Both the position numbers and the translations under genes were made by a program. A DNA stretch of 64,000 nt from an uncultured SAR116 cluster alpha proteobacterium (lineage in GTDB: Bacteria; Pseudomonadota; Alphaproteobacteria; Puniceispirillales; Puniceispirillaceae). Positions 36 to 44,042 of the stretch are shown here, piece after piece (the stretch's first letter is position 1; each line of letters begins with the position of its first letter). Location of the stretch: assembly GCA_902622515.1 (NCBI GenBank), contig CACNQE010000004.1, positions 1 to 64,000 of the forward strand, read 5' to 3'. The notes beneath the pieces are model-generated. The model ran no database searches. It was not told the DNA's origin and saw nothing but the letters and a program-made list of their open reading frames with translations.

Positions 36-59
36 GCGGGCAAAAGCCCGCTTTTTTTT
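36..59 (+). terminator. Rho-independent terminator of an upstream gene outside the window
   Basis: A 6-bp GC stem (GCGGGC/GCCCGC) with an AAAA loop is followed directly by eight T. The T run is on the + strand, so it ends transcription of a gene left of the window. The last T is also the first base of the sigma-54-like element that follows. Confidence 0.85.
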
Positions 60-74
60 GGCATAAAATTTGCA
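59..74 (+). promoter_or_regulatory. Sigma-54-type promoter for flmG operon
   Basis: TGGCATAAAATTTGCA carries GG and GC exactly ten bases apart, as in the -24/-12 consensus TGGCAC-N5-TTGCW. The predicted transcript would begin near 86. A TTG at 70 lies inside this element, so it cannot be the start codon of the following gene. Confidence 0.75.
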
Positions 75-102
75 AATTCTCCATGTTCTTATGGAGAAAA
101 TA

Positions 103-1842
103 ATGGAAGCGTTAGACTTATCAAAAATTGAAATAAATGCTGAAGAAAATGATAATAAAACTTCTTTATCAAAAAATCTTCGTGACCTAGAAAAATTCGA
201 AAAAAAGAATGGTAGAGGGTTTGATAGTCTTCTAGCCAGGGGGGCAATTTACTTTAATTCAAGAGATTTTGAAAAGTCAAAATTCTATTTTGAAAAAGCA
301 GCAAACATTAAATACGATATAAATATTATTTCTGCCTTGATGAAGCTTTACTCTAAAACTGACTGTATATCGGAGATTATACCTCATCTAGAAAAATCAA
401 AAGACACATTAGAATCAAATTTTACTTATTGGCAGTTAGCAGGTTTTGCGTATGCAGAATTGCTTCAGCCAGAAGAGACTGCCAATAATCTGATGAAAGC
501 AAGACAACTTGGTAGCAAAACAGAATTAACAACAAGTCTATTATTAAAAAGTCTCGGAAAGACTGACAGACTCGATGAGCAGTACGAGATTGCAAAAGAA
601 GAAATAGCCAAAAATAATCTTTCTAGTGTAGTTGTTATGTCTTTTGTATCTTCCTGCATAAAAACGCATAGATTTGAGGAGGTTCTTAATTTTTTCGAAA
701 CAACAGATTATGACTGGCAGTCTGAAGCAATATTAGCCGCATTTGCGGGAATAGCCCATCAATCCAATGGTAATATTGAGGAAAGTCTTAAATTAAACAA
801 ATTGGCTCTAGAAATAGAACCTGATAATATTGAAATAAGATGGAATCTTGCGTTAACTCAACTCAGATATGGAGATATAAGAGAGGGATTAGAAAATTAT
901 AAAGTAAGGTTTGATTGGAAAAATTTTCCAAGTCCCAAAAGACAATTTGACGTCCCAAAATGGCATGAGGGTGTTGATAAATATTCTAGAATTTTAATTT
1001 GGTCAGAGCAAGGTTTAGCGGACGAGATTTTATTTTCCACTGCCTTAAAATCATTTGCGAAAGAATTTCCAAATTTAATTTTTGAAACTCATTTTAAAGC
1101 CACCGAGATTTTGACTAGAAGTTTTCCAGAAATTCATTGTAGAACGGGTCTTTTTGACGACAATTCGTTAAAGCCATTTTATAACGATTTTCAATATCAC
1201 GTTCCTATGGGGGATATATTTCTTTGGTTTCTAAATAAAAATATAGAGAAGCTTGAAGCTGGGGAAACCTTAAAAAATCTTGATTATTTAAAGGCAGATG
1301 AACTTAGAAAGCAATATTGGGGATTAAAACTCAACAAAGAAAATAATAAGCCAAAGGTTGGATTTTGTTGGTCAAGCTCTATCCTTAGTGATGGTCGACA
1401 CACTCACCATACAAAACTGGACAATTGGGAGAGAGTTTTAAGCAGAAAAGATATAGATTTTGTGAGTTTACAATATGATGTCGATTACGAGGATATCTCA
1501 AAAAATCACTCTGAAATTTCAAAATACTTTATGGATACTGGTTTCCTAGACCAAATGGATGATGTAGACGGTGCGTTAGCATTGATGAGTAATCTTGATC
1601 TTGTTATAACATCCCCATCTGCTCCCTACGCTTTAGCTGGAGCCTTAGGTTTGGAAACTTGGTTTTATAGTGCCTCTTCTCATTTTATGCTTGGTAGAAA
1701 TGGAAAATTTATAGAGCATCCTTTGCTTCCAAATATGAAAAATTATGTGACCAAGTCTGCCCATAAAGACCAAAAATTAATAGAAGATTTTAACGAGAGA
1801 CTAGATTCGTTTGTAAAAGATTTTAAAAAGAAACAAGTGTGA
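103..1842 (+). CDS. flmG: FlmG-like TPR/glycosyltransferase (flagellin nonulosonic acid transferase)
   Basis: This 579-aa protein has helical TPR-like repeats over about residues 1-280 and a GT-B type region after about 290. That region holds 'IWSEQGLADEILF' and a C-terminal 'DLVITSPSAPYALAGALG' segment typical of TPR-linked family 9/41-like transferases. Caulobacter FlmG (formerly FlbA, about 600 aa) has this layout: its TPR part binds flagellin and its C-terminal part transfers a nonulosonic acid. The gene directly precedes a legionaminic acid pathway, which supports that role. ATG at 103 is chosen because GGAG lies six bases upstream and the sigma-54 element at 59-74 excludes the TTG at 70. 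ATG 91 is a less likely alternative. That its substrate is legionaminate is inference. Confidence 0.72.
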   Translation: MEALDLSKIEINAEENDNKTSLSKNLRDLEKFEKKNGRGFDSLLARGAIYFNSRDFEKSKFYFEKAANIKYDINIISALMKLYSKTDCISEIIPHLEKSKDTLESNFTYWQLAGFAYAELLQPEETANNLMKARQLGSKTELTTSLLLKSLGKTDRLDEQYEIAKEEIAKNNLSSVVVMSFVSSCIKTHRFEEVLNFFETTDYDWQSEAILAAFAGIAHQSNGNIEESLKLNKLALEIEPDNIEIRWNLALTQLRYGDIREGLENYKVRFDWKNFPSPKRQFDVPKWHEGVDKYSRILIWSEQGLADEILFSTALKSFAKEFPNLIFETHFKATEILTRSFPEIHCRTGLFDDNSLKPFYNDFQYHVPMGDIFLWFLNKNIEKLEAGETLKNLDYLKADELRKQYWGLKLNKENNKPKVGFCWSSSILSDGRHTHHTKLDNWERVLSRKDIDFVSLQYDVDYEDISKNHSEISKYFMDTGFLDQMDDVDGALALMSNLDLVITSPSAPYALAGALGLETWFYSASSHFMLGRNGKFIEHPLLPNMKNYVTKSAHKDQKLIEDFNERLDSFVKDFKKKQV

Positions 1843-1896
1843 GAAACTATAGAGTATTTGGTCAAAAATCTACAGCATAAAATTTAAGGATTTAAT

Positions 1897-2889
1897 GTGC
1901 GAGTATTGGTTACAGGTTCAGATGGATTTATTGGGTCTCACTTAGTGGAAGAGCTTGTGAGACGAGGATACGATGTGCGAGCATTCGTGATGTATAACTC
2001 GTTTAATTCTTGGGGTTGGTTAGACAAATGCGCCCCAGATGTAAAAGAAAATTTTGATGTATTTCAGGGTGATATTCGTGATCCAAATGGTGTGAGACAG
2101 GCGATAAATGGATGCGACGTTGTGTTACATTTAGCAGCTTTGATTGCAATACCCTTTTCATACCACTCTCCAGACAGTTATGTAGATACAAATATCAAAG
2201 GTACTTTGAATATTCTGCAGGCAGCACGTGAAAAAAATGTAAGAGTTATTCACACATCTACTAGTGAGGTTTATGGAACGGCAGATTTTGTGCCAATAAC
2301 TGAACTTCATCCTCTAAAAGGGCAGTCTCCATATTCAGCTACAAAAATAGCTGCTGATCAGCTTGCGTTTTCATTTTATAGTTCTTTTGAATTACCAGTC
2401 ACAATTATTCGCCCATTTAATACCTATGGTCCAAGACAATCATCACGGGCAGTTATTCCAACGATCATTTCTCAAATAGCATCTGGCGCAGGGAACATAA
2501 AATTAGGGTCTGTACATCCTACAAGAGACTTTAATTTTGTTGAAGATACAGTTGAGGGGTTCATAGCTTCTATGAATTCTGTCGATGCTTACGGAGAAGT
2601 CGTTAATTTAGGAAGTAATTTCGAAATATCTATAGCAGATACTGCTTTAATGATTGCAAATATCATGAGTAAGGACGTCAATGTCGATACGGATGATATA
2701 CGATTGAGGCCTGAAAAAAGTGAAGTTGAAAGACTATGGGCAGATAACAAAAAAGCAAAATCTTTATTAGGTTGGGAACCCAACTTTTGCGGGCTCGATG
2801 GTTTAGAAAGAGGTTTGAAAAAAACAATTACATGGTTTTCTGAACCAGAAAATCTTTCCCTCTATAAAACTGATAGATATACGATATGA
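1897..2889 (+). CDS. legB: LegB, nucleotide-GlcNAc 4,6-dehydratase (extended SDR)
   Basis: This 330-aa extended short-chain dehydrogenase has the N-terminal NAD motif VTGSDGFIGSH, the catalytic TSTSEVYG segment and the YSATK Tyr/Lys pair. In the legionaminate pathway LegB converts (GDP-)GlcNAc to its 4-keto-6-deoxy derivative in the cytoplasm. The start is GTG at 1897 with AAGGA six bases upstream. It overlaps the following aminotransferase by ATGA, so the two are translationally coupled. The family is certain; the LegB assignment comes from the legC-legH-legI-legG genes that follow in order. Confidence 0.85.
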   Translation: MRVLVTGSDGFIGSHLVEELVRRGYDVRAFVMYNSFNSWGWLDKCAPDVKENFDVFQGDIRDPNGVRQAINGCDVVLHLAALIAIPFSYHSPDSYVDTNIKGTLNILQAAREKNVRVIHTSTSEVYGTADFVPITELHPLKGQSPYSATKIAADQLAFSFYSSFELPVTIIRPFNTYGPRQSSRAVIPTIISQIASGAGNIKLGSVHPTRDFNFVEDTVEGFIASMNSVDAYGEVVNLGSNFEISIADTALMIANIMSKDVNVDTDDIRLRPEKSEVERLWADNKKAKSLLGWEPNFCGLDGLERGLKKTITWFSEPENLSLYKTDRYTI

Positions 2890-4070
2890 ATAATCATGAA
2901 CCTATAAACAACAGTTATCTAATATCAAGCAAAATTGTTAGGGCAATTCGTGCTGTCATCGGAGAAGAAAAAAATACGCTTCATGAGCCTACTTTTAAAG
3001 GCAAAGAATGGGAATATGTAAAAGACTGTCTTGATAGCGGTTTTGTTTCATCTGTTGGGCAATATGTTGAAAAATTCGAAAATAAAATTACAGAGTATAC
3101 AGGTGCAAAGTATGCAGTTGCAGTGGTTAACGGCACTGCAGCCTTGCACTTAGGGTTAATTGTAGCAGGAGTTAAGTTTGATGATGAGGTTTTAGTCCCC
3201 TCGCTTACGTTTGTTGCAACAGCAAATGCTGTATCTTACATAGGAGCTAAACCACATTTTGTAGATATTAATGCTAAAGATCTTGGAATAGATGCAAAAA
3301 AGCTAACAGCCTATCTCAAAGAGATTTCAGAGATTAAGAATGGGTTTTGCGTAAACAAGAAAACGGGCCGAGTGATTAGAGCTATTGTTCCAATGCATGT
3401 TTTTGGTCATCCTTGTAATCTAAAGGAATTATTACCTCTGTGTAATAAATTCAAAATAAAGGTTGTTGAGGATGCCGCAGAAGCTCTTGGAAGTTTTTAT
3501 GATAAAAAACATACGGGAACATTTGGTAACCTTGGTGTAATTAGTTTTAACGGAAACAAAACAATAACCACTGGTGGTGGTGGTGTAATTCTGACAGATG
3601 ATATTGATCTAGCCACTCATGCAAAGCATTTGTCAACGACTGCGAAATCAAATCATCCATTTGCCTATGTTCATACTGAAATAGGATTTAATTATCGAAT
3701 GCCAAACTTAAATGCAGCTCTAGGCTGTGCTCAACTTGAACAACTGCCAGAATTATTGAATTCAAAAAGACGATTATATAGGGCTTATTCAAAGGCATTT
3801 TCTGAAATATCAGAGGTGAGTCTTTTTCAAGAACCCCCTTTATGTCAAAGTAACTATTGGCTACAGACATTACTTTTGAACGAAGAATTTATGTCATGTC
3901 GAAAGGAAATTATAGAGAACTGTATAGAGGATGGTATAAGTACTAGGCCAGTTTGGAAACCCCTACATAAACTCTCTATATACGAAAATTCACCTGCATC
4001 TTCATTAGCTATTACTAATAATTTATCCGAGAGAATAATCAATATTCCAAGCAGTGCGGGGTTGGCATGA
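2886..4070 (+). CDS. legC: LegC, PLP-dependent sugar aminotransferase
   Basis: This 394-aa DegT/DnrJ/EryC1-family enzyme has the PLP-lysine segment 'FNGNKTITTGGGG', the 'VNGTAALHLGL' phosphate-binding region and the 'VVEDAAEALG' aspartate. LegC aminates the 4-keto sugar made by LegB, using glutamate. The N-terminal extension before 'EPTFKGKEWEYVKDCLDSG' is typical of the LegC subgroup rather than of ArnB. It overlaps legB and legH by four bases each, so it sits inside one tight operon. Confidence 0.86.
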   Translation: MNNHEPINNSYLISSKIVRAIRAVIGEEKNTLHEPTFKGKEWEYVKDCLDSGFVSSVGQYVEKFENKITEYTGAKYAVAVVNGTAALHLGLIVAGVKFDDEVLVPSLTFVATANAVSYIGAKPHFVDINAKDLGIDAKKLTAYLKEISEIKNGFCVNKKTGRVIRAIVPMHVFGHPCNLKELLPLCNKFKIKVVEDAAEALGSFYDKKHTGTFGNLGVISFNGNKTITTGGGGVILTDDIDLATHAKHLSTTAKSNHPFAYVHTEIGFNYRMPNLNAALGCAQLEQLPELLNSKRRLYRAYSKAFSEISEVSLFQEPPLCQSNYWLQTLLLNEEFMSCRKEIIENCIEDGISTRPVWKPLHKLSIYENSPASSLAITNNLSERIINIPSSAGLA

Positions 4071-4684
4071 CTTCAATAGTTCTTGTTGGCGGAGGAGGGC
4101 ACTGTAAGTCCTGTATAGAGGTGATTAATTCTGATGGTAGATACAGAATAGAAGGCGTTGTAGATAATCAATATACAACAGATGATAAATGTTTGGGTAT
4201 TCCATATATTGGACGTGATGAAGACCTAAAAGCCATTTTAACAAAATTTAAAATGGCATTAGTAACATTGGGGCAAATTAAGAACTACGAAGTTCGGAAA
4301 AACCTTTTTGAAATGATAAAAGCATTGGGTGCCCAAATGCCAATCATTCAAGCTTCATCTAGTATTGTTTCAAGTAACTCCGAAATAGGAGAGGGAACTA
4401 TTGTTATGCATGGTGCCATCGTGAATGCATGTGCTCAAATTGGGAAAAATGTAATTATTAACTCAATGGCTTTAATCGAACACGATGTTCACATCGGCAA
4501 TCATTGTCATATATCAACTGGCGCTCGTGTAAATGGGAATGTGAATATTTCTGATGGGTGCTTTATTGGGAGTGGAGCAGTGTTACACCAAAACATTAGT
4601 GTTGGGAAAAATGCTATAATCGCCGCTGGAGCTATCATATCCAAAGATGTCGGAGAGGGCGAGTTTGTGCAGGTGATATTATGA
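4067..4684 (+). CDS. legH: LegH/NeuD-family sugar N-acetyltransferase
   Basis: A 205-aa protein with an N-terminal Rossmann-like PglD domain ('SIVLVGGGGHCKSC') and a C-terminal left-handed beta-helix of hexapeptide repeats from about residue 95 ('IGEGTIVMHGAIVNA', 'IGNHCHISTGARVNG'). The catalytic His is probably the one in 'LIEHDVHIG'. It would N-acetylate the 4-amino sugar with acetyl-CoA. It overlaps both neighbours by four bases. NeuD-type O-acetyltransferases look alike, so the N-acetylation role is taken from operon position. Confidence 0.8.
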   Translation: MTSIVLVGGGGHCKSCIEVINSDGRYRIEGVVDNQYTTDDKCLGIPYIGRDEDLKAILTKFKMALVTLGQIKNYEVRKNLFEMIKALGAQMPIIQASSSIVSSNSEIGEGTIVMHGAIVNACAQIGKNVIINSMALIEHDVHIGNHCHISTGARVNGNVNISDGCFIGSGAVLHQNISVGKNAIIAAGAIISKDVGEGEFVQVIL

Positions 4685-5691
4685 GTAAGCCTAAAGTTGA
4701 AATCATTGCAGAGGCTGGTGTAAATCATAATGGTGATTTATCTATAGCACTGGAACTTATTGACGCAGCTGCCAATGCAGGAGCAGATCATATAAAATTT
4801 CAGACATTCAAGGCTGATAATTTGGCAACAAAGAAAGCTGAAAAAGCGCTTTATCAAATAAAATCCGATATCCCTAATGAAACACAGTACGAAATGTTAA
4901 GCCGTCTAGAATTAAGTTTTGAAGCACATCAAGTCTTACTTGAAAGGTGTGAGGAAAAAAAGATTGGCTTTTTATCCTCAGCTTTTGACTTTGATAGTTT
5001 AGATTTATTGTCATGTATAGATTTGCCAATGATTAAAATACCCTCTGGTGAAATTACTAATTTGCCATATTTGAAATATGTTGGAAAAATGAAAAAAAAG
5101 ATAATTTTATCAACAGGTATGGCAAATATTGATGAAATACAGGAAGCTATCTCAATCCTAATACAACAAGGAACAGAGCAAAAAAATATTATTATTTTAC
5201 AGTGTAACTCAGAATATCCAACTCCAATGGAGGACGTGAATCTTCTGGCAATGACTTTAATGGCTCAAAAATTTAATACTCAAGTTGGTTACTCAGACCA
5301 TACATTAGGAATTGAAGTGCCAATTGCAGCTGTAGCACTGGGAGCAGTTGTTATTGAAAAACATTTTACTCTTGATAGAAATTTTGAAGGGCCAGACCAT
5401 CATGCTAGTCTGGAACCAGAGGAATTGATTAGAATGGTGCAGTCAATTCGAAATATCGAGAAAGCATTAGGAGACAGTATAAAAAAGCCTTCAATAAGTG
5501 AAAAATTGAACATTCCCATTGTTAGAAAATCCATAGTTACTGCCTGTCCCATTAAGCAGGGAGAAAGGTTTAGTGAAAAAAATCTTTGTGTAAAGCGACC
5601 TGGTACTGGCGTTTCCCCCATGAGATGGGATGAAGTGATGGGTTTATATGCAAACAAAGATTATAATAAAGATGAATTAATCAGTCTATGA
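4681..5691 (+). CDS. legI: LegI, N,N'-diacetyllegionaminate synthase
   Basis: This 336-aa NeuB-family synthase condenses phosphoenolpyruvate with the 6-deoxy-mannosamine derivative. It shows the N-terminal 'IIAEAGVNHNGD', the TIM-barrel 'KIPSGEITNLPYL' and 'GYSDHTLG' segments, and 'VIEKHFTLDR' with the metal-binding His. A C-terminal antifreeze-like SAF domain lies at about 280-336. Length is usual for the family. It could make sialic acid or pseudaminate, but the surrounding legB/C/H/G set points to legionaminate. ATGA overlap with legG follows. Confidence 0.86.
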   Translation: MSKPKVEIIAEAGVNHNGDLSIALELIDAAANAGADHIKFQTFKADNLATKKAEKALYQIKSDIPNETQYEMLSRLELSFEAHQVLLERCEEKKIGFLSSAFDFDSLDLLSCIDLPMIKIPSGEITNLPYLKYVGKMKKKIILSTGMANIDEIQEAISILIQQGTEQKNIIILQCNSEYPTPMEDVNLLAMTLMAQKFNTQVGYSDHTLGIEVPIAAVALGAVVIEKHFTLDRNFEGPDHHASLEPEELIRMVQSIRNIEKALGDSIKKPSISEKLNIPIVRKSIVTACPIKQGERFSEKNLCVKRPGTGVSPMRWDEVMGLYANKDYNKDELISL

Positions 5692-6848
5692 AAAAAATAT
5701 GCGTTATTACAAGCTCACGGGCTGATTATGGTCTATTAAAGCATTTATTAAAAGAAATTAAAGTCTCCCCACTTTTGCACTTACAATTGATTGTATGTGG
5801 AAGCCATCTTTCTTCTTTTCATGGAATGACTATCAATGAAATTATTGATGATGGTTTTAAAATAGATGAAAAGGTAGATATAACCCAAAAAAATGATACA
5901 CAACTTGATATTAGCATATCAATTAGTTCAGGTATTAAGAGCTTTTCAAGAATATACGCAAGTCTTAACCCAGATGCTGTATTAATATTAGGAGACAGAT
6001 ATGAGATTTTAGCTGCCGCAATTTCAGCAACTATTGCTAATATTCCTGTTGTGCATTTGCATGGTGGTGAGATTACAGAGGGTGCTATCGATGATATGTT
6101 TAGACATTCTATTACTAAAATGTCTCATTTGCATTTTGTTGCGGCGGTTCCCTATAAGAAGAGAGTTATTCAACTCGGGGAAAATCCTAAAAATGTATTT
6201 TGTGTCGGCGGGCTAGGGGTAGATGCTCTAAAAAAAGTTCCCATCTTAAGTAAGGAAAATCTCTCAAAACAATTAAACATAAAACTAAAAAAACGCTCGT
6301 TTCTTGTCACATATCATCCTCTTACAGCTAATCCATCTACTGGCTACCTAGAACTTTCAGAATTACTACAGGCGTTAGAAAAATACGAAGATTGTTCAAT
6401 AATATTTACCATGCCAAATGCAGATGCCGATGGTTTGCAATTAGCAAAAACTCTTAAAACATTCGCAGATGCGCATATAAATAGTTATTATTTTTCGTCT
6501 CTTGGACAGGAAAAATATTTTTCTTGTCTGAGTAATTTTGACGCTGTTATTGGGAATTCTTCAAGCGGTTTGCTTGAAGCCCCAAGTTTTAAGATACCAA
6601 CGATAAATATTGGCGATCGTCAAAAAGGAAGGCTTAAAGCAGAGAGTGTAATAGATTGTGAAGCAAAGAAAGAAAACATACAGCAGGCTATTCAAAAAGC
6701 TCTCTCACCTGAATTTATTAAAAAAACCCAAAAAACCATTAATCCATATGGAAGAGGTGGTGCTTCAAAAAAAATCGTTAGAATTTTAGAAAACTCTGAC
6801 TTTTCAAAACTTTTTACAAAGGAATTTTTTGATCAGCATGTAAATTAA
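5688..6848 (+). CDS. legG: LegG, nucleotide-sugar hydrolysing 2-epimerase (NeuC family)
   Basis: This 386-aa protein has 'ITSSRADYGLLKHLL' at the N-terminus, 'ILGDRYEILAAA', 'HLHGGEITEGAIDD' and 'GNSSSGLLEAP', the signatures of UDP-GlcNAc 2-epimerase (hydrolysing). In the legionaminate route the enzyme releases the 2,4-diacetamido-6-deoxymannose used by LegI. Its start overlaps legI by four bases. It is the last gene of this run; a separate promoter element lies in the 91-bp gap after it. Confidence 0.85.
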   Translation: MKKICVITSSRADYGLLKHLLKEIKVSPLLHLQLIVCGSHLSSFHGMTINEIIDDGFKIDEKVDITQKNDTQLDISISISSGIKSFSRIYASLNPDAVLILGDRYEILAAAISATIANIPVVHLHGGEITEGAIDDMFRHSITKMSHLHFVAAVPYKKRVIQLGENPKNVFCVGGLGVDALKKVPILSKENLSKQLNIKLKKRSFLVTYHPLTANPSTGYLELSELLQALEKYEDCSIIFTMPNADADGLQLAKTLKTFADAHINSYYFSSLGQEKYFSCLSNFDAVIGNSSSGLLEAPSFKIPTINIGDRQKGRLKAESVIDCEAKKENIQQAIQKALSPEFIKKTQKTINPYGRGGASKKIVRILENSDFSKLFTKEFFDQHVN

Positions 6849-6891
6849 ATTCAACGAATTGAAATAGATTTTCAATGAGATTTTCCCTGAA

Positions 6892-6907
6892 AGGCACAGT
6901 AATTGCT
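6892..6907 (+). promoter_or_regulatory. Sigma-54-type promoter for ptmE-legF
   Basis: AGGCACAGTAATTGCT lies in the legG-ptmE gap, with GG and GC ten bases apart and a good TTGCT -12 block. The first base deviates from the T of the consensus. The predicted start of transcription is near 6918, about 20 bases before the ptmE ATG. Confidence 0.7.
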
Positions 6908-6939
6908 TAAATGTAGAATACATAAGTTTAGGAGAATAA

Positions 6940-8082
6940 ATGACTGTTGTTAAAAAAGTAGCCTTGGGAGCTTGCAGTCAGCCTAATAAAAGTAAGGCAA
7001 AGGCTGGATTATTAGATAATAATTGGAAGAAAACATTGTTGCCAATCAAGGCAACTGTGCAGGAGGCTATAACACGTCTTGACCAAGCGGCTATGCAGAT
7101 CGTCATGGTTGTAAATGAAAAAAATGAACTCTACGGAACTATTACAGATGGCGACATTCGTAGAGGCTTGTTAAATGGTTTAAAATTAGATAGCCCCGTT
7201 GAAGGTGTGATTCAACGTGAGGCTTTTGTAGTACCTGAGTCTATGGAAAATGAAATAATTCTGAAAATAATGTCTGCGAATAGTATACGGCAAATACCAA
7301 TAATAGATAATAAGCGAAAAGTTGTTGGTCTTCATACTTGGGAAAATTTAGCTGTTAAAACTGAACTCTCAAACCCCATGATTATTATGGCTGGAGGCAA
7401 AGGGAAACGGTTACACCCTTTCACAGAAAAGTGTCCAAAACCATTACTTCCTGTTTATGGGAAACCAATAATGGAGCATATTCTCATACAGGCTATTTCT
7501 GAAGGATTCACAAGTTTCTTTGTCTCAGTAAATTATTTATCTGAAATGATAGAAAGTTATTTTGGTGATGGTAAAAAATGGGGTGTTAAAATTAAATACA
7601 TACACGAGGAACAACCTCTAGGCACCGCAGGAGCACTTTGCTATTTAGAGAAAAATATAAATGTCCCTTTTGTAGTAACAAATGGTGATGTTTTAACTCA
7701 CATGCGCTATTCAGAATTCCTTGATTTTCATATTCATCATCATGCTGAGGCTACAATGGCAGTACGAACTTATGAGTGGCAGAACCCTTTTGGTGTAGTA
7801 AACATAGATGGTTTAGATATTATTAGCCTCGAGGAGAAGCCAATCGATAAAAGTCATATTAATGCAGGAATTTATGCGCTTGACCCAGTGGCCTTTGATC
7901 ATCTGAAAAAAAATGAAAAATGTGATATGCCAATGCTATTTGAGAGAATTAGAAAATCTGGAAATAGAACAGTCGCCTATCCTATGCATGAACCATGGTT
8001 AGATGTTGGTCGTCCAGATGATTTTAAACTTGCTGAAAACTATGTTCAAAACCATAGTGAAACAAATAATGTAGCCCAGTGA
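6940..8082 (+). CDS. ptmE: PtmE-like CBS-domain nucleotidyltransferase (glucosamine-1-P guanylyltransferase)
   Basis: This 380-aa protein joins two CBS domains (about residues 30-130, 'YGTITDGDIRRGLL' and 'QIPIIDNKRKVVGL') to a sugar-1-phosphate nucleotidyltransferase starting at 'IIMAGGKGKRLHPFTEKCPK' (about 147). The same arrangement is known from Campylobacter PtmE, which makes GDP-glucosamine for the legionaminate pathway. A good SD (AGGAG) precedes the ATG. Partner PtmA and PtmF genes are not in the window. GDP specificity is inferred from context. Confidence 0.8.
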   Translation: MTVVKKVALGACSQPNKSKAKAGLLDNNWKKTLLPIKATVQEAITRLDQAAMQIVMVVNEKNELYGTITDGDIRRGLLNGLKLDSPVEGVIQREAFVVPESMENEIILKIMSANSIRQIPIIDNKRKVVGLHTWENLAVKTELSNPMIIMAGGKGKRLHPFTEKCPKPLLPVYGKPIMEHILIQAISEGFTSFFVSVNYLSEMIESYFGDGKKWGVKIKYIHEEQPLGTAGALCYLEKNINVPFVVTNGDVLTHMRYSEFLDFHIHHHAEATMAVRTYEWQNPFGVVNIDGLDIISLEEKPIDKSHINAGIYALDPVAFDHLKKNEKCDMPMLFERIRKSGNRTVAYPMHEPWLDVGRPDDFKLAENYVQNHSETNNVAQ

Positions 8083-8084
8083 AG

Positions 8085-10067: not shown

Positions 10068-10103
10068 TAATTTTTCCTTAAAAAGTAAAATACATATTTC
10101 ATC

Positions 10104-31637: not shown

Positions 31638-31676
31638 TTCGTGCTTCTCCTGCAAAAAAAATTACAAGATATACTA

Positions 31677-37051: not shown

Positions 37052-37096
37052 TTCATCTTTCTCCTAAATTTCTAATTTACTAGTCTTTATTTTATT

Positions 37097-37792
37097 TTAT
37101 TTTCTAAACTTTTGGACATCTGATGCAAGAATCTCGCCATAATCGCGAACGTCTAAAACAACACCTCTCGTCTCATCTCCTGTGGAAGCTGCTAATACCT
37201 CTGCAAATATTGATGGGGTAAGGCTTTCCATACCATTTCCAAAATCAGCGAAGGCTTCAATTCTTAGTGGTTCATTCATGTCTGCAATTTCTGTTGGTAT
37301 GTTTTCCCAACTGAAACCAACCAGACCTGACGCTTGCGCACCAAGTTGTTTACTGTGCAAAATATTACCTGTTGCGTCAGTAAAACGAATTTCAGTTTGT
37401 GCTGAGGACTTTGGAAGATCGAGCATGCCATGTATTGTTTGGTCAGAGTCAATTCGAGCATAATTTCCCGGTATCATTACTGAGCTTCCCAGCATATTTG
37501 AGGCAGTAGCAATCCGAAATTCTTTTAATTGAGAGCTTATTGATTTAAGGGCCTCTCCCATTTCTGCTATTCCTGTAACAGTTGAAAATTGAGCCATTTG
37601 ACCGATAAATTCAGCATTTTCCATTGGAGCAAAGGGGTCTTGATTTTGTAGTTGAGTTGTCATTAGTTTCAAGAAATCTTCTTGACCTAAATTATCCTTA
37701 GAAGCAGGTTTTTTTGCTTCTGCGTTTTTGACCCCAATTTTGTCAAGAATTGTGTTTAAATGTGCTTGGCTATTTGAGTCTATGCTACTCAT
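37097..37792 (-). CDS. flgD: FlgD, hook cap/scaffold protein
   Basis: This 231-aa protein has 'LGQEDFLKLMTTQLQNQDPF' and 'NAEFIGQMAQFSTVTGI', the conserved FlgD N-terminus, followed by the FlgD Ig-like/tudor region. It caps the growing hook. ATG 37792 has GGAGAAA just upstream; the ATG at 37804 overlaps that SD and is less likely. Confidence 0.94.
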   Translation of the reverse strand: MSSIDSNSQAHLNTILDKIGVKNAEAKKPASKDNLGQEDFLKLMTTQLQNQDPFAPMENAEFIGQMAQFSTVTGIAEMGEALKSISSQLKEFRIATASNMLGSSVMIPGNYARIDSDQTIHGMLDLPKSSAQTEIRFTDATGNILHSKQLGAQASGLVGFSWENIPTEIADMNEPLRIEAFADFGNGMESLTPSIFAEVLAASTGDETRGVVLDVRDYGEILASDVQKFRK

Positions 37793-37809
37793 AATTTTCT
37801 CCATTAATT

Positions 37810-38226
37810 TTATTTGCCCATACTTATGGTTCGCATCATCAGTGTTCTTAGAGTAGTGATGACTTCTACATTATTTTGGTATTGACGACTTGCCTCCATC
37901 ATTTCGACGTATTCTTCTTCTATATTTACAGCAGCACTATATACGAAACCGTCCTTTCCCGCGCTCGGGTGATCTGGCATATAAAGCTTTTCGGGAAGCC
38001 TATTAGATTCAACAATATCAATGGCTTGCGCTGTTGCTACACCATTTTTACGCACCTCATCTGCGTACTTTGTTTCAAAAACAGGTTTTAAAGATCGATA
38101 GGCCTCGTCTGGAGTAGAGGCTAAGTTTCCAGCATTTGCTAGATTACTAGCTATTGTATTGAGGCGCACCAATTGTGCAGCCATAGCTCTCCCAGAAATA
38201 TCGAAAACATTTTTGATATCTGCCAT
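37810..38226 (-). CDS. flgC: FlgC, proximal rod protein
   Basis: A 138-aa rod protein with 'AAQLVRLNTIASNLANAGNL', 'PDEAYRSLKPVFE' and 'VNIEEEYVEMMEASRQYQNNVEVI'. Length is usual for FlgC. Its start touches the flgB stop, so the two are coupled. Confidence 0.95.
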   Translation of the reverse strand: MADIKNVFDISGRAMAAQLVRLNTIASNLANAGNLASTPDEAYRSLKPVFETKYADEVRKNGVATAQAIDIVESNRLPEKLYMPDHPSAGKDGFVYSAAVNIEEEYVEMMEASRQYQNNVEVITTLRTLMMRTISMGK

Positions 38227-38612
38227 TATTCGCCCTTTATAGCTGACATAAGGCCCGCTATTCGTTTGTTCAAAAATTCAAGAGATGTTTGATATCGAAC
38301 AGAGTTCTCAGAAAACTCCAGTTGTTCGACACTTAATTCTACAGTATTCCCATCTAATGAAGGATTAATTGGTTGCCTATAAAAAAGTGTTTGATGTGGG
38401 TTTTTTACCGCTATCTTGAAGTGTTTACTATCGGTTGCCTTTAAAGGACCGGATCCTTCTACTTGACGAATTTGTTTTTCATAATCAAGGTCGCGTGCCT
38501 TAAACTTTGGAGTGGCAGCATTTGCTATGTTCGAAGCTAGAATATCATTTCTTCGGGAACGCAATTGCAATGCAGACGCGTGAAAACTTAAATGTTCGCC
38601 TATACTTTTCAT
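38226..38612 (-). CDS. flgB: FlgB, proximal rod protein
   Basis: A 128-aa rod protein with 'ALQLRSRRNDILASNIANAA' and 'PKFKARDLDYEKQI', the FlgB signature. ATG 38612 is chosen (GAGG about nine bases upstream), since an upstream start at 38636 adds residues not seen in the family. It heads flgB-C-D-E-F. Confidence 0.94.
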   Translation of the reverse strand: MKSIGEHLSFHASALQLRSRRNDILASNIANAATPKFKARDLDYEKQIRQVEGSGPLKATDSKHFKIAVKNPHQTLFYRQPINPSLDGNTVELSVEQLEFSENSVRYQTSLEFLNKRIAGLMSAIKGE

Positions 38613-38676: not shown

Positions 38677-38692
38677 TGGTGTAGAAATTGCA
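38677..38692 (+). promoter_or_regulatory. Possible sigma-54-type promoter for the acidic protein gene
   Basis: TGGTGTAGAAATTGCA keeps GG-N10-GC and a perfect TTGCA, but the -24 block is TGGTG instead of TGGCA. The transcript would start near 38703, about 25 bases before the ATG at 38728. It overlaps the element for flgB on the other strand. Confidence 0.5.
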
Positions 38693-38704
38693 AGTAAGAT
38701 GCCA
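38689..38704 (-). promoter_or_regulatory. Sigma-54-type promoter for flgB-C-D-E-F
   Basis: Minus-strand TGGCATCTTACTTGCA, with exact GG-N10-GC spacing. The predicted transcript starts near 38677, leaving a leader of about 65 bases before flgB. Confidence 0.8.
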
Positions 38705-38727: not shown

Positions 38728-39333
38728 ATGGAATTCTCATTAGAAGATAACCGTGCAGGTGCTGGAAGTTCTGTTCTTCTTTCACCTGAAATAGTTGCTA
38801 TAAGAACAAAATTAATTGAGGCCTGTGATGGTAAAACATTTGCTGACACAATCGAATTTTTAAAACAGTTACTCAATAAAGAAGAAGATGAACAAAAAAG
38901 ATTGGGAATATTGGCTGCGCGTGTATTAGTTCTCAGACAGCGGGTTTCTCATATTCAGGAAAAAGAAGATGCATCTGATACATCTCAATTTGTTGCACTA
39001 ACTCAAAGTGTTGTCGATGATGATGATGAAAAAGATACAGAGGATGAAGCTGACGCGAGCGATAATGAAAGTTGGATAAGAGTTCGAATTACTGAAAACA
39101 GTATTGTGAAAGGGGTCCGATTTCCAAAAGGAGTAATCGTTGACGTTCATCATGAGGAGGCAGATGCCCTTATCGAAGCCGGTAAGGCAGAAGTGATTGA
39201 ATCATCCGAAGAAAAAAATGACGCAGAAGCAGAAACAGAGGTAGAAGCAGAAACAGAGGTAGAAGCAGAAACAGAGGTAAATACTGATGCAAAAGTTGAT
39301 GCGGAACCAGATACAGAAGATAAATCTGCATAA
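38728..39333 (+). CDS. Acidic hypothetical protein with EAETEV repeats
   Basis: This 201-aa protein has a helical N-terminal half (about 20-85), an acidic linker ('DDDDEKDTEDEADASDNE'), and a small folded domain at about 110-155 ('WIRVRITENSIVKGVRFPKG', then 'EADALIEAGKAEVIE'). That domain resembles short domains often seen in phage head proteins. The tail carries three EAETEV units. I do not recognise a function. It is divergent from flgB and shares the promoter region, so a flagellar role is likely but unproven. Confidence 0.6.
   Translation: MEFSLEDNRAGAGSSVLLSPEIVAIRTKLIEACDGKTFADTIEFLKQLLNKEEDEQKRLGILAARVLVLRQRVSHIQEKEDASDTSQFVALTQSVVDDDDEKDTEDEADASDNESWIRVRITENSIVKGVRFPKGVIVDVHHEEADALIEAGKAEVIESSEEKNDAEAETEVEAETEVEAETEVNTDAKVDAEPDTEDKSA
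39226..39279 (+). repeat. Three perfect 18-bp tandem repeats in a coding region
   Basis: The unit GAAGCAGAAACAGAGGTA occurs three times without a mismatch and encodes EAETEV each time. An in-frame 18-bp unit lets copy number change without breaking the gene. Confidence 0.9.
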
Positions 39334-40278: not shown

Positions 40279-40584
40279 TTAAATCTCCTTTGCAAGAGAT
40301 TGCTTCAGATGCTGATCTAAATCCTGAAACCAATTCAATTTGGCATTCGTTTTTAATTCAAGAGTTTTTAAAAGTCTCAATATACCTCTAATTTTTTCAA
40401 CCTGAGAATTATTTAAAGATTCCATTTGTATTTCTGCTATTAGATTTGGAGAAGCATCTAACAAGTTTTTTTCGAGTACTTTTATTTTTTCGTTAAAAAG
40501 GTTTTCATTCTCCAGGCATGACAAAGCACTCTCGAGATTCGACTCGAAAGTGTCAAAAAAAACATCTAAATTATGTTCAGACAT
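40279..40584 (-). CDS. Small helical protein, possible FlgN
   Basis: A 101-aa all-helical protein ('NLDVFFDTFESNLESALSCL', then 'GILRLLKTLELKTNAKLNWF'). Its place straight after flgM is where flgN, the export chaperone for FlgK and FlgL, is found in many species. Similarity to FlgN is too weak to be certain. A chaperone here would have to handle the 1743-aa FlgK. Confidence 0.45.
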   Translation of the reverse strand: MSEHNLDVFFDTFESNLESALSCLENENLFNEKIKVLEKNLLDASPNLIAEIQMESLNNSQVEKIRGILRLLKTLELKTNAKLNWFQDLDQHLKQSLAKEI

Positions 40585-40613
40585 ATACTTCCCCTTTTAA
40601 AAGAGATATATGT

Positions 40614-40919
40614 CTATGATTTCATATCGCGATATGCGTCCATTAGTGCATCTGATACTGCGTCAATATCAATCGGGTATTTGCCATCAGCTATAGCGTT
40701 TTTAATGCGCGCAACGGCTTCTGTATCAATTGGCGGTTGTTTCGCCAATTGAGCTACCTTTTCAGATATTTCTACCTTACTTGTGTCAGCGGAAGCATTA
40801 TCTACTTTTAGTCCCTTACTTAAAGCAGAGGGATTAGAGTCAGACTTTATGTCATTTTCACTAACACGTGAACGCTGTATATCGATTCGATTCATTGAAT
40901 GTTTTATTGAATCAACCAT
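40614..40919 (-). CDS. flgM: FlgM, anti-sigma-28 factor
   Basis: A 101-aa protein with the disordered N-terminal half and the C-terminal FliA-binding pattern 'VARIKNAIADGKYPIDIDAV' followed by 'SDALMDAY', which is diagnostic. It inhibits FliA, encoded at 48339 in this window, until exported through the finished hook. It follows flgA. Confidence 0.92.
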   Translation of the reverse strand: MVDSIKHSMNRIDIQRSRVSENDIKSDSNPSALSKGLKVDNASADTSKVEISEKVAQLAKQPPIDTEAVARIKNAIADGKYPIDIDAVSDALMDAYRDMKS

Positions 40920-40968
40920 TTTTTTACTCCTCAGATGTAGTAACGACCAGCTTTCTTAAAATATTAGT

Positions 40969-41700
40969 TTATACGTTCACTTTTTTTTCGGCAACTACCT
41001 TTGCCAAAATAATTCGACCACTTTTTATATTTTTTACTTTAATCCAGTCACCAAATTGACCGTTTTCTAGAGCAATTCCCTCCATTTGTACAGAAATATG
41101 AGTGCTGTGATGGATAATTTCGACTTGCATATCTTCTTCAATCATAAAATTAGTTTCTAGCTGTCGGGAGTATACTGGTGTGAGTGCCTTAATAGTTGTT
41201 TTTGCACGTCGTCCAATTAAATCCTTAAAATTTGGAAAAATATCAGTCGCTTTATTTTCTGGAATACTGATCTCAATAACGTCTGTTGGCGTTATCACAT
41301 CACCTCGTCTTATACTTCTTTTAATAGCAGCAACTTTTACTTCTTTGATGGTGCGTTTTTCTAATATGATTGCTTGAGATTCTTTGTTTAAATTAAAACT
41401 AGACACATTTTGAGTAGAACTAAATTTATTTCTTATTATTATTTTCCAAGGGAATGTTCCGATACATTCAACACTTACTGTTTTCCAGTTTTGGTGCATT
41501 GGGTTTACGTTTAAATCATGCGCACATTTTGGAAATAGTTTTTTTTCATTTATAACTGGTGTGGCATTGACGTTGTTTAAAGCAAGAGTATTTTCAATAG
41601 CCTTTTTTATTATGTTGCCTGGTATTTTATTTTCAGCAGTCAACTTCGACGGATTTAGTAGGGTTAGAAAAGTGAAAATCAGGATAATATAGCGGGCCAT
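40969..41700 (-). CDS. flgA: FlgA, P-ring assembly chaperone
   Basis: This 243-aa protein has a signal peptide with likely cleavage after 'SKLTA', and a C-terminal SAF domain: 'AIKRSIRRGDVITPTDVIEI', 'RRAKTTIKALTPVYSRQL', 'VQMEGIALENGQFGDWIKVK'. It acts in the periplasm during FlgI ring formation. Two bases separate it from the LysM-like gene. Confidence 0.92.
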   Translation of the reverse strand: MARYIILIFTFLTLLNPSKLTAENKIPGNIIKKAIENTLALNNVNATPVINEKKLFPKCAHDLNVNPMHQNWKTVSVECIGTFPWKIIIRNKFSSTQNVSSFNLNKESQAIILEKRTIKEVKVAAIKRSIRRGDVITPTDVIEISIPENKATDIFPNFKDLIGRRAKTTIKALTPVYSRQLETNFMIEEDMQVEIIHHSTHISVQMEGIALENGQFGDWIKVKNIKSGRIILAKVVAEKKVNV

Positions 41701-41702
41701 AA

Positions 41703-42167
41703 TTATCCTCCAATGAAGTAAATTTCTTGGTTCCTCATTCCTCCATTTTGAGGCTCTTGCATACTTTTAGGGGTGTTTTTTCCTAAAAGCATCGCTTGAA
41801 TTTGGTTAAGAGAAGGAAGTTTTAAGGTTTTATCTGCGAATAAGAAATTTGGATTATTTTTGACAAATGCGTGTTTGTTATGTGCAACTATTGCTAATTC
41901 AACGAATTTCATGTTTAGTCCACTGCCAGAATAATAGTCCTCTAATATATGACTCAGAGTTTCGTCTGGTCGTACTTTGTGAGTTGCTGAATAATTGTGA
42001 TCTTGAACAAATGCGTTATCTGAGTTTATTTGTGAATTATTTCTAAAATTTGGATATTCTAAAACTACAATCGGTTGAGATTGTGAATATGCAATTGCTG
42101 GAAGAAATAAAATCAAAGCACTTGCTAGTAAAACGCTGGAGATTAGTTTTATGTTCATGATTCGCAT
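41703..42167 (-). CDS. Exported LysM/FimV-like protein
   Basis: This 154-aa protein has a signal peptide (cleavage near 'AIAYSQ') and one LysM-like unit at about 60-120: 'HKVRPDETLSHILEDYY', then 'NKHAFVKNNPNFLFADKTLKLP'. This resembles the N-terminal module of FimV, which helps place polar structures at the peptidoglycan. It overlaps the flgT stop as TAATG. In vibrios a different protein, FlgO, accompanies FlgP and FlgT; this is not clearly FlgO. Confidence 0.6.
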   Translation of the reverse strand: MRIMNIKLISSVLLASALILFLPAIAYSQSQPIVVLEYPNFRNNSQINSDNAFVQDHNYSATHKVRPDETLSHILEDYYSGSGLNMKFVELAIVAHNKHAFVKNNPNFLFADKTLKLPSLNQIQAMLLGKNTPKSMQEPQNGGMRNQEIYFIGG

Positions 42168-43330
42168 TAGTTTAGCTCCATAAATTCAACTGTTTTTCCA
42201 TCTAGTTCACTTAATTCTCTTGCTTTATCCAATGGTTCAAGTACTGACGCATTGGCAGAAGCTGACACCACTCTTAACATAGTCCATGGTGTATGTTTAC
42301 CAGATGTCACAGCTAGCATATTTGTTTTGATGCCTTGGTTATACCCTATCTGTGCCAAAAGCTGTTCAGAATTGAAAAAAAGTGTGTCTTTTAATGACTG
42401 ACAGCCAAGAGTTTCCGTCATTTCTGAGATAAGCGGTTGAACTAAGGATCTCATTGTATTAATTAAGTCTTCTCTGCTTTTTTTGTCTAGGTCTGCTAGT
42501 GTCTGGAAAACTGTAATTCTGTCATTTTCAAAAGTCTTGAAATCCTCAAATTTTTCAATCAATTCGTAAGTTTCACCTTTAAAAACATTCAAGCCTAATT
42601 TAATTTCAATGTTATTAGAATTAGAAAAACGGCTCGCCGTGTTACGAGTTGAAATTGATAATGTCGGAACAACCGCAAAATCACCTTTCCTGACGCGAAC
42701 CTGCGGAGATATCAAACTTGCATAATCGTATCTTTCATCGATATTTTCCAATTTTTTGGGAGAGAGTACAACATTCATTGCATTATTGACGGAGAGACGA
42801 GTATTGTTGCTAAGCAGAAATAAAATTTCATTAAATAACTTCGAATGATAAATTTCTATCCATGCAGGAACGTTCATATCTATTGTGGTAGTTGGTCTGT
42901 ATAACGTGATATTAAGGGGTCTTGAACTTTGACATTTTTTGGCAGGTAGATTTCCAACCGCTGCTCTAATAATTACCTCAATCTGTGAATCAGATTTATT
43001 CTCTGATAAAACCGTATAATCTAAAATTTTACTTGAGGGGCGAATAACGAAATGATCCTGAAGAGAGGTATCAGTTGAGACAGAAGTAAAACCATTAATA
43101 TCTGCACCACCTTGCAATGCTGCCAAATATAGAGCATCTTCTAGAGCCCTCAATCTGGCAATTTCCTCAGTAACATTTTGGGTGATCGCAGCTCTACCGG
43201 TAGCTGTTGTAAATTTGAATGATTGTTCATTGTTGGCATTCGCGACAGAAGCATTCATTAGCAAAAAAGATGTTTTGACGAAAACTAATAACGCTGACAA
43301 AAATTTTGTATTTAAAGTTAATTTAAACAT
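42167..43330 (-). CDS. flgT: FlgT-like H-ring protein
   Basis: A roughly 387-aa protein with a signal peptide (cleavage near 'SVANA') and the FlgT N-domain: 'TATGRAAI', 'ARLRALEDALYLAALQGGAD', 'DHFVIRPSSKILDYTVLSE'. In vibrios FlgT builds the H ring around the LP ring and helps hold stator proteins. The start is uncertain: ATG 43330 gives the clean signal peptide, and a TTG at 43381 overlapping the flgP stop is the alternative. Confidence 0.8.
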   Translation of the reverse strand: MFKLTLNTKFLSALLVFVKTSFLLMNASVANANNEQSFKFTTATGRAAITQNVTEEIARLRALEDALYLAALQGGADINGFTSVSTDTSLQDHFVIRPSSKILDYTVLSENKSDSQIEVIIRAAVGNLPAKKCQSSRPLNITLYRPTTTIDMNVPAWIEIYHSKLFNEILFLLSNNTRLSVNNAMNVVLSPKKLENIDERYDYASLISPQVRVRKGDFAVVPTLSISTRNTASRFSNSNNIEIKLGLNVFKGETYELIEKFEDFKTFENDRITVFQTLADLDKKSREDLINTMRSLVQPLISEMTETLGCQSLKDTLFFNSEQLLAQIGYNQGIKTNMLAVTSGKHTPWTMLRVVSASANASVLEPLDKARELSELDGKTVEFMELN

Positions 43331-43373
43331 CTTTGTAATTCTTATTTTATGTTTATGAACATTCCTTAAAAAA

Positions 43374-43913
43374 TCAGACAACCCTTCGTCCGGTATTGAG
43401 CAGGTAGTTAATCATTTCGCGGTCTATTTCTAATACAATTTCATACGTATCGGCTCCAGTAGGATTAATTCGCACAGTACGTGCTCCTCTAATTGTACCA
43501 GAAACTATACCTCTGAAAGTATCATTCTGAACCATAAGGTCTATAACCGTAGTCGAACTATCAACCTGAAGTCCATGTATCTGTTCGGCCAGGTCACGCA
43601 TTGCGGCCATCCTTGCTGAACGTATTGCCATAAGGCGACGTTGTGATTCTGACTGTCCTGGCTGAGATGATACAACCGCATATCCCACAGCTGTTAAGGT
43701 TGGAATGTTTTCTGAATTTGCCTCGAAAATCTCGCGTACTGAATTTAGGGATGATGTTGGTGAATTTTCATTATTGGCAGCTAATTCTGCGGGTGATATA
43801 ATCGAATTAGCACCCGTCTGTAAATTAGCGTTATTAGTTGACAAGTCATGCCCACAGCTACTTAATGCAACGGATGCGACTACTGGCAGTAAAATAGAAA
43901 ACGATTTTTTCAT
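43374..43913 (-). CDS. flgP: FlgP-like lipoprotein (LPP20 family)
   Basis: A 179-aa lipoprotein with lipobox 'VALSSC' (Cys near 20) and an LPP20-type domain: 'LTAVGYAVVSSQPGQSESQR', 'MAIRSARMAAMRDLAEQIHG' and a C-terminal 'EIVLEIDREMINYLL'. FlgP forms outer-membrane disk or H-ring structures round the motor in Vibrio and Campylobacter. First gene of this minus unit. Confidence 0.82.
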   Translation of the reverse strand: MKKSFSILLPVVASVALSSCGHDLSTNNANLQTGANSIISPAELAANNENSPTSSLNSVREIFEANSENIPTLTAVGYAVVSSQPGQSESQRRLMAIRSARMAAMRDLAEQIHGLQVDSSTTVIDLMVQNDTFRGIVSGTIRGARTVRINPTGADTYEIVLEIDREMINYLLNTGRRVV

Positions 43914-43958
43914 TTCTGGACTCTCTTAAGATAGTTAACCGTAATTTTTGTATTGTCA

Positions 43959-43974
43959 TGCATTAATCATGCCA
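43959..43974 (-). promoter_or_regulatory. Sigma-54-type promoter for the flgP-flgT-flgA-flgM unit
   Basis: Minus-strand TGGCATGATTAATGCA with exact GG-N10-GC spacing and an ATGCA -12 block. The transcript would start near 43947, about 34 bases before flgP. Confidence 0.7.
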
Positions 43975-44026
43975 GCGAATTACTATTTGTTTTAAAAGCT
44001 ATATTTATTCATAAAATTATAATAAT

Positions 44027-44042
44027 TGGCACGATTTTTGCC
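44027..44042 (+). promoter_or_regulatory. Sigma-54-type promoter for flhA-flhF-flhG-fliA
   Basis: TGGCACGATTTTTGCC is a full match to the -24 block and close at -12. It is divergent to the element at 43959-43974, 52 bp away. The transcript would start near 44054, giving an unusually long leader of about 170 bases before flhA. Confidence 0.8.

Follow-up and report, generated by a model that had tools for sequence, protein, structure and literature searches.

In Rhodobacter (Cereibacter) sphaeroides, the flagellar flhA and flgA promoters are divergent. The Fla1 flagellum of this species, as set out in the main text of one report, depends on the sigma-54 factor RpoN2 and on FleQ and FleT, which act as a mixed complex and one of which is encoded in the fliEFGHIJ operon, with motAB also under sigma-54 and with sigma-28/FlgM acting below (PMC7277832). 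Here we analyse the first 64 kb of contig C4 (CACNQE010000004.1; this whole stretch is called the window) of a SAR116 genome (2.11 Mb in 39 contigs, 95% complete), in which predicted sigma-54 promoters lie ahead of flagellar genes, of two sets of sugar operons and of a radical SAM unit. The arrangement is like that of Fla1, being that of an alphaproteobacterium with an activator pair beside fliE and with sigma-54 sites at the rod/hook, flhA, flgA and motA operons. Unlike FleQ and FleT, each of the two activators here lacks a different domain, and the likeness drawn here is one of arrangement. Moreover, the main text of the Fla1 report does not use the word stem 'glycosyl', whereas here sugar genes carry sigma-54 sites.

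For Helicobacter pylori, work on flaB-jhp0106 with rpoN and promoter mutants describes RpoN as driving a putative flagellin glycosyltransferase gene (PMC5368276); that gene rides on the flagellin promoter, whereas the sugar-synthesis operons of the window have promoter elements of their own. Caulobacter FlmG is described as a protein of 596 amino acids (aa) with an N-terminal TPR region and a C-terminal GT-B-like domain that works with NeuB (PMC7591256), and in the window a 579-aa TPR gene likewise heads a NeuB operon, the two being likened by description. In the same report flmG and neuB are presented as CtrA-controlled, whereas the operon of the window has sigma-54 sites. Plesiomonas shigelloides has legionaminate genes between flagellar regions, an FlrA/FlrC sigma-54 system and flagellins that carry a legionaminate-like glycan; the available text of that report assigns no sigma-54 promoters to the sugar genes (PMC4481668), whereas we predict them here. 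Sigma-54 control of exterior polysaccharides has been set out in general terms (PMC3162934), and open-access titles and abstract openings, among the matches listed, gave no description of sigma-54 control of sugar or radical SAM genes in SAR116. The glycosylation of flagellin has to be in place by the time the filament is built, and its coupling to flagellum building may here be readable from DNA. Beyond an earlier note on this DNA, which had drawn attention to the elements, we add a contrast with sugar operons elsewhere, an apparently recruited module and a possible mirror-image promoter.

Placement of the sigma-54 elements

Taken together, the evidence makes it probable that the flagellar RpoN regulon includes the sugar and radical SAM units, their predicted promoters being driven by a flagellum-linked activator pair. 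The earlier note had proposed that these units are switched on by RpoN along with the hook and basal body, and this proposal is supported, at the level of sequence, by the placement of the elements, their conservation, the presence of rpoN and of activators, and the contrast with sugar operons elsewhere. The window (Table 1) opens with a legionaminate-type operon (103-8732, +), followed by a second sugar operon on the minus strand, a divergent two-gene sugar unit on the plus strand and the radical SAM unit on the minus strand; beyond it lie flgL back to flgB (-), and the right part of the flagellar region holds flgM/flgA/flgT/LPP20 (-) and then flhA-flhF-flhG-fliA (+).

All ten GG-N10-GC elements that the earlier note had claimed are found at their positions and strands, and nine of them score at least 13, our threshold for a strong site, on a sigma-54 weight matrix; the one at 38677, which had been called weaker, scores 8.66 and is weak alone. 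Each was also said to precede a gene start and to be oriented towards it, and this agrees with our gene calls (borders from a list of open reading frames (ORFs) and a simple gene caller of our own), the gaps between element and start codon spanning 28-180 bases. The gene after element 59 was called from the ATG at 103, rather than from a TTG at 70 that overlaps the element.

The number of matches is by itself unremarkable: TGGCACN5TTGCW with up to three mismatches occurs 291 times in the window against 255.6 expected from shuffled sequence (standard deviation 16.5). We therefore rejected the raw count as evidence, since the claim cannot rest on number, and used a comparison with shifted spacers instead. 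The latter also replaced a reversed-pattern control (269 vs 37), which was rejected because the reversed pattern contains CG, which is expected to be rare. The spacer comparison covered 461 kb, made up of the window and 20 stretches of the same genome, 12 of which were picked near perfect matches or activators and the other 8 without regard to sites. At the native spacing 22 intergenic sites score at least 13, and 20 of these lie upstream of a gene start, whereas spacers shifted by -3, -2, -1, +1, +2 and +3 give 1, 0, 1, 1, 0 and 0 sites upstream of genes. Inside genes there is no excess (55 sites at the native spacing vs 55, 40, 26, 51, 32 and 57 at the shifted ones). Thus the placement in intergenic gaps, which the earlier note had held to be beyond chance, stands, and as to equal density inside genes, named there as a refutation, the sample has no excess within genes and a large excess in the gaps.

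By our own gene calls the window holds 10 strong intergenic sites in 2,916 intergenic bases, together with 9 strong matches within genes, whereas the 8 unselected stretches hold none in 14,661 intergenic bases. These 10 include an additional element at 44108(-), whereas 38677 is excluded by its score. Perfect matches to TGGCAYN5TTGCW number 16 in the genome, and five of them fall within these 64 kb (binomial P 8e-5); the whole-genome spacing test for exact patterns is mild, with 16 of 93 at N5 against a mean of 7.7 at the other ten spacings (P 0.009). The 44108(-) element lies between 44027 and flhA and faces the flgP operon, of which it is a possible distal promoter. It is also present in three relatives (G005, G001 and G003, by our genome numbers), and at a score of 12.5 no counterpart was found in four more distant genomes.

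RpoN, its activators and other sites in the genome

The earlier note had suggested a search for rpoN and for flagellum-linked activators, and both are there. The rpoN gene (contig C10:25355-26845, 496 aa) has the activator-interacting, core-binding and DNA-binding domains, and a family search with domain scans places a pair of sigma-54 activators on contig C3, next to flagellar genes. The AAA+ family of these activators matches seven places in the genome, three of them strongly; two strong genes stand back to back (C3:6043-8543) between fliS and fliE, where FliD and FliS were named by Pfam, and fliE to fliP, flhB and motA by recognition of sequence and order. One of the pair has the AAA+ domain and a Fis-type helix-turn-helix (HTH) without an N-terminal receiver domain, and the other has an N-terminal region and the AAA+ domain, an HTH not being found in the domain scans. 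Two further genes of the activator family lie on contig C1, at 174591 and 178244, and we take this pair to be NtrC/NtrX.

Outside the window, ten strong upstream sites were found in the sample, four of them at flagellar genes (fliD, fliK, fliO and the second C3 activator); judged by its predicted sites, RpoN in this genome serves more than flagellar genes. The motA gene (C10:27969) has a sigma-54 site with the -24 variant TGGTAY, as it does in all 10 genomes in which motA was found, of 11 examined, so that the matrix undervalues T at that position. Close to rpoN, a strong site at C10:22442 precedes the bactofilin gene (C10:21875; L079 11875-12303).

Conservation of the sites in relatives

Of 27 stretches examined for the flgB site, 23 contain an flgB upstream region, and every one of these has the site, while four are without flgB; the flgG site (31677) is present in all 11 relatives whose sampled DNA spans it, and the flhA (44027) and LPP20 (43959) sites are each kept in 8 of 8 aligned genomes. 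The four sugar-cluster sites are all kept in G001, where spacers and flanks have diverged and the cores have not: element 59 reads TGGCATAAATTTTGCA there, with its core kept, and element 6892 reads AGGCACGGTTTTTGCT, while 17091(-) and 17143(+) are kept as well. The sugar-cluster proteins of G001 are mostly 57-77% identical to those of the window, with 50% for the 437-aa protein and 54% for the second nucleotidyltransferase. G005 keeps the four sites too, and carries little weight, being nearly identical to the window. G008 has a strong site before a pair of TPR genes, whose proteins are 31% and 37% identical, beside its flagellins.

What follows flgL varies between genomes. The radical SAM unit stands there in G000, G005 and G009, and another nonulosonate cassette in G003 and G008, both with a site 10 bp after the flgL stop (12.83 in G003); the own site of the post-flgL operon of G008 scores 14.81. 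G025 has a different gene after flgL, with a site at 32 bp. The remaining seven of the 12 relatives have no strong site after flgL, and in G001 and G004 the genes there are closely packed on the same strand. In this small sample, the pattern suggests that the spot after flgL is a resident promoter that receives different cassettes.

Sugar operons near and away from flagellar genes

We compared NeuB operons according to whether they share a stretch with flgL or flagellins, counting sites within 300 bases upstream. Four of the six linked operons have a site of at least 13 (two of the four come from G008), whereas none of the 17 without flagellar genes in the sampled DNA has a strong site, two of these being in the window's own genome (Fisher P 0.0017). 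The two linked misses are G003, where the operon starts on another contig and the site scores 12.83, and G023, with a site of 12.88; at a threshold of 12.5 the contrast becomes five of six vs 0 of 17, with G023 counted in and G003 kept as a miss. For these counts, a second NeuB was merged with the first as one operon in L208, G010, L216 and L221, the nearly identical copy of the window cassette in G005 was excluded, and the post-flgL operon of G008 was credited with the flgB site, reached through a chain of genes. Two weak sites (12.84 and 12.86) ahead of the NeuB operon of G010 (L215) fell outside the 300-base rule.

Regulon membership and its alternatives

We propose that the elements are sigma-54 promoters of the class that would serve the rod, the hook, the export gate and sigma-28/FlgM, and that this promoter type is shared by the radical SAM unit and by two sets of sugar operons of the nonulosonate/heptose type. 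The C3 activator pair most likely drives these promoters. Surface-sugar enzymes would then be made with the hook and basal body, before filament assembly, and the sugars probably glycosylate flagellin.

Several points weigh against this proposal. The weights of the matrix were set by hand rather than retrieved. The activator family matches all 14 of 14 control genomes, so the evidence for the activators rests on the domain scans. The remaining strong sites outside the window stand before the bactofilin gene, three unassigned ORFs and the genes of an SLT transglycosylase and a PfkB-like protein, and with only 4 of 10 at flagellar genes the promoter alone is no proof of flagellar control. A search for a common enhancer motif gave as its top dyad TGGT-N6-GGTA, from flanks shared by neighbouring promoters, and we dropped it as an enhancer for that reason and because looser forms are common inside genes. 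Across genomes, rpoN was not found in G003 (90% complete), G004 or G005 (95%), and no more than part of it was found in G001, G006 and G018; a tight co-occurrence of rpoN and flhA was rejected, each being present in 28 of 41 genomes (20 have both genes, 8 have rpoN alone, 8 have flhA alone and 5 have neither). The conservation of the legionaminate sites rests on one diverged relative, G001. Of the 17 unlinked NeuB operons five run to the end of the sampled DNA, where an unseen promoter is possible. An earlier rule that set linkage at 12 kb gave a weaker contrast (P 0.12 at score 13, 0.02 at 12.5), because the cassettes of the window and of G001 are separated from flgL by more than 12 kb; the same-stretch rule was adopted after it, and two of its six linked operons come from a single genome (G008).

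Among the alternatives, one could consider that expression of the sugar and radical SAM genes comes mostly from sigma-70 promoters or from read-through out of flgL, the sigma-54 sites adding little. In G001 and G004 gaps of just 4 and 18 bp, neither holding a strong site, separate flgL from the next gene, so that read-through is likely used in these relatives. As an account of the window we consider it unlikely, since the cores are kept in the otherwise diverged gaps of G001 and the plus-strand units at 59, 6892 and 17143 are out of reach from flgL. At least as unlikely, in our judgement, is that the sigma-54 promoters of these units are real but answer to the C1 activators, and hence to nitrogen or some other signal. 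Those two genes do exist, no enhancer motif was found to link sugar and flagellar promoters, and 6 of the 10 strong sites outside the window are not at recognisable flagellar genes. Nevertheless, sugar and flagellar promoters interleave on one stretch, the sugar operons without flagellar genes nearby had no strong site in the sampled DNA, and it is the flagellar activator pair that sits in the fliS-fliE gap. Chance matching, which the near-chance count in the window, the ordinary frequency of strong matches in genes and the mild whole-genome test would allow, is highly improbable given the 20 sites upstream of genes against 0-1 and the order-wide conservation.

The radical SAM and sugar module

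We surveyed 35 loci of other organisms that have a close relative of the radical SAM protein, checking for proteins of the second sugar cluster nearby. NAD-epim3 was found in 26 of them, PfkB-HldE in 23, each DegT in 22, SIS in 14, each TPP subunit in 11, NTP-transf2 and the 104-aa protein in 9, the 437-aa protein in 7 and the 230-aa protein in 2, and flagellar matches in only one (Colwellia), with the reservations that broad families may match relatives rather than the same gene, that the stretches differ in length and that diverged flagellar proteins may escape. As a control, none of nine second-cluster proteins was found in the 8 unselected stretches of the window's genome. The 35 loci hold 9 strong intergenic sigma-54 sites in 614 kb. 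Of 121 genomes of the order, 4 have the 230-aa protein, namely the window's genome, two near relatives and, weakly, a fourth. The radical SAM unit and the second sugar cluster look like one widespread glycan module, and because this module is widespread and seldom beside flagellar genes it looks to have been recruited to the flagellar neighbourhood. It may thus be an instance in which glycan pathways that spread horizontally have become part of a developmental regulon.

In Colwellia (L061 10001-21089), the cassette is found upstream of an flrA-flrB-flrC-like set with a sigma-54 site, and it may have been recruited to flagellar genes there for a second time.

A mirror-image element upstream of flgB

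Bidirectional sigma-70 promoters, as presented in the available text of two reports by Warman and colleagues, have a symmetric core common to two opposed promoters, to which the polymerase binds either way, the pairs sharing a -10 with starts usually 18 bp apart (PMC12825309, PMC10268837). Upstream of flgB, the elements 38677(+) and 38689(-) form a single symmetric element of 28 bp, TGG-N8-TTGCAA-N8-CCA, within TTGG-N8-TTGCAA-N8-CCAA, whose strong arm points to flgB and whose weak arm points to the gene of a 201-aa acidic protein. The GC of both promoters lies within the one self-complementary TTGCAA, the shared -12, and by position arithmetic the predicted starts, 38703 (+) and 38678 (-), each fall on the -24 GG of the other promoter. 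The element has a symmetric shared core as in the sigma-70 type, but it has no sigma-70 -10: here it is a -12 that would be shared, by promoters that are sigma-54 and activator-dependent, with predicted starts 25 bp apart, which makes it a counterpart and not a member of that type. Open-access titles and abstract openings, among the matches listed, gave no description of a sigma-54 promoter pair sharing one -12.

In nine genomes sampled through flgL before the symmetry was noticed, the mirrored arm has TGG in all nine. A wider survey of flgB upstream regions took in 29 genomes, the flhA-bearing relatives and G008, and 23 regions were seen; of 18 stretches sampled for it, 10 came from genomes known to hold the pattern and 8 from flhA-bearing genomes without a listed flgB-type match. 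The mirrored CCA stands at the exact spacing in 20 of the 23 (14 distinct sequences), and the exceptions, G030, G033 and G039, are all of one family. Six genomes were not seen, either for a stretch without flgB (G006, G018, G024 and G040) or for a contig too short (G004 and G029), which sets the floor at 20 of 29; for all of the six but G006, no flgB-type match was among the whole-genome pattern matches listed. The element is kept in three families of the order.

Sites scoring at least 15 in the same stretches number 110, and the 23 that have a mirrored CCA are the 20 flgB sites, their own mirror arms in G010 and G020, and one of the 85 others (G022). The corresponding Fisher test gives 6e-16 for flgB against other strong sites, a value computed with 3 of 87 that ignores kinship among the genomes. 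Over the order, the mirror pattern occurs in at least 54 of 121 genomes; among the 75 matches listed, a TGGCAY arm is present in 42, which come from 40 genomes, and of 30 loci inspected 18 lie between flgB and the 201-aa gene. At motA, a mirrored arm is present in four of the five genus members seen (the copy of the window's genome is broken) and in none of five genomes from other genera.

We lean towards the view that the flgB element is a bidirectional sigma-54 promoter that would couple hook/rod output to the divergent acidic protein, together with the post-flgL site as a resident promoter taking surface-sugar cassettes. Through the shared TTGCAA, the RpoN polymerase would load in one of two mutually exclusive orientations. 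A less probable, indeed doubtful, reading of the flgB element is that the arm at 38677 is a half-operator, with a dimeric regulator binding TTGG-N8-TTGCAA-N8-CCAA and blocking or tuning flgB. Dyads are typical of regulator sites, and in most genomes the weak arm keeps only the TGG of the -24 (here TGGTGT). The weak arm nevertheless holds the exact GG-N10-GC spacing and faces a co-conserved divergent gene, and it is a strong element by itself in G010 (TGGCCCGTATTTTGCA, 17.34) and G020 (TGGCCCACATTTTGCA, at least 15). Also against an operator, the arm is lost in three genomes where the 201-aa gene matches at about 29-33%, although arm-bearing genomes go down to 32%. A bidirectional sigma-54 promoter at flgB would pose the question of how two activator-dependent promoters behave with a single -12 in common.

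Another symmetric sigma-54 site, TGGCAT-N5-ATGCAT-N5-ATGCCA-like, lies in a flagellar stretch of contig C1 of G022 (L269 local 1843).

Gene layout and naming

The window has a GC content of 36%, and its features are collected in Table 1. In the legionaminate-type operon the homologues of LegB, LegC, NeuB (LegI) and NeuC (LegG) all exceed the NCBIfam cut-offs (TIGR04180, TIGR04181, TIGR03569 and TIGR03568); the candidate CMP-legionaminate synthetase has PseF as its best model, at 175.7 bits and under the cut-off of 205.7, and the acetyltransferase gene (4067-4684) was named by recognition only. Seven genes of the second sugar operon were assigned by models, all below the cut-offs of those models, and family searches gave no assignment for its 437-aa protein. 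Family-model searches likewise found no family for the 230-aa and 201-aa proteins. The radical SAM protein shares 99% identity with its counterpart in the SAR116 single cell AG-894-M09, and flgB, flgC, flgF and flgG were distinguished by order and length.

For the TPR protein, the predicted structure has helical repeats at residues 18-256, in the N-terminal part, where TPR chains of solved structures match. For a GT-B domain in its C-terminal half, there was no Pfam match and no credible match to a solved structure (best profile E 0.3); the predicted structure used for this question has a mean pLDDT (predicted local distance difference test) of 44.9, with the C-terminal half poorly modelled.

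Table 1. Predicted sigma-54 elements and genes of the window
Feature	Coordinates	Strand	Context or basis
Sigma-54 element TGGCATAAAATTTGCA	59..74	+	28 bp before ATG 103 of the TPR gene heading the legionaminate operon
Sigma-54 element AGGCACAGTAATTGCT	6892..6907	+	before 6940
Sigma-54 element TGGCATTAATTTTGCA	17091..17106	-	before second sugar operon (16076-17059 onward)
Sigma-54 element TGGCATGAAAAGTGCA	17143..17158	+	before heptose-kinase-like gene
Sigma-54 element TGGCACAATTTTTGCA	22494..22509	-	10 bp after flgL stop, before radical SAM unit
Sigma-54 element TGGCATGACAATTGCT	31677..31692	-	between flgF and flgG
Mirror-image double sigma-54 element, TGG-N8-TTGCAA-N8-CCA	38677..38704	both	strong arm 38689-38704 (-), weak arm 38677-38692 (+)
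Sigma-54 element TGGCATGATTAATGCA	43959..43974	-	before LPP20/flgP-flgT-flgA-flgM
Sigma-54 element TGGCACGATTTTTGCC	44027..44042	+	before flhA-flhF-flhG-fliA
Eleventh element TGGCCTAATTTTTGCA	44108..44123	-	score 13.95; absent from the earlier note
TPR protein, 579 aa, FlmG-like candidate flagellin glycosyltransferase	103..1842	+	TPR models, each below gathering score; TPR solved structures
Legionaminate-type genes: LegB, LegC, acetyltransferase, NeuB, NeuC, CBS-nucleotidyltransferase, CMP-sugar synthetase	1897..8732	+	
Second sugar operon: epimerases, SIS isomerase, two DegT aminotransferases, TPP-dependent E1-like pair, 437-aa protein	8754..17059	-	
PfkB/cytidylyltransferase fusion (HldE-like) and sugar nucleotidyltransferase	17229..19408	+	family models
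Radical SAM unit: 104 aa, 230 aa, radical SAM/SPASM, PhyH	19567..22454	-	family models
Flagellar rod/hook genes flgB C D E F G H I J K L	22520..38612	-	
201-aa acidic protein	38728..39333	+	downstream of weak mirror arm
LPP20 lipoprotein, FlgT, 154 aa, FlgA, FlgM, SiaC-like protein	40279..43913	-	SiaC below gathering score
flhA, flhF-like GTPase, flhG-like ATPase, fliA-type sigma factor	44223..49058	+	flhF and flhG named by order and fold class

Towards the end of the window (56198-63995) lie three large genes (853, 928 and 628 aa) without strong intergenic sigma-54 sites. Within the flagellar region, the hook-associated protein FlgK is very large (1743 aa; 23433-28664), and so is the hook protein FlgE, with 1505 aa (32534-37051) against 1390-1575 aa for complete-looking FlgE in relatives.

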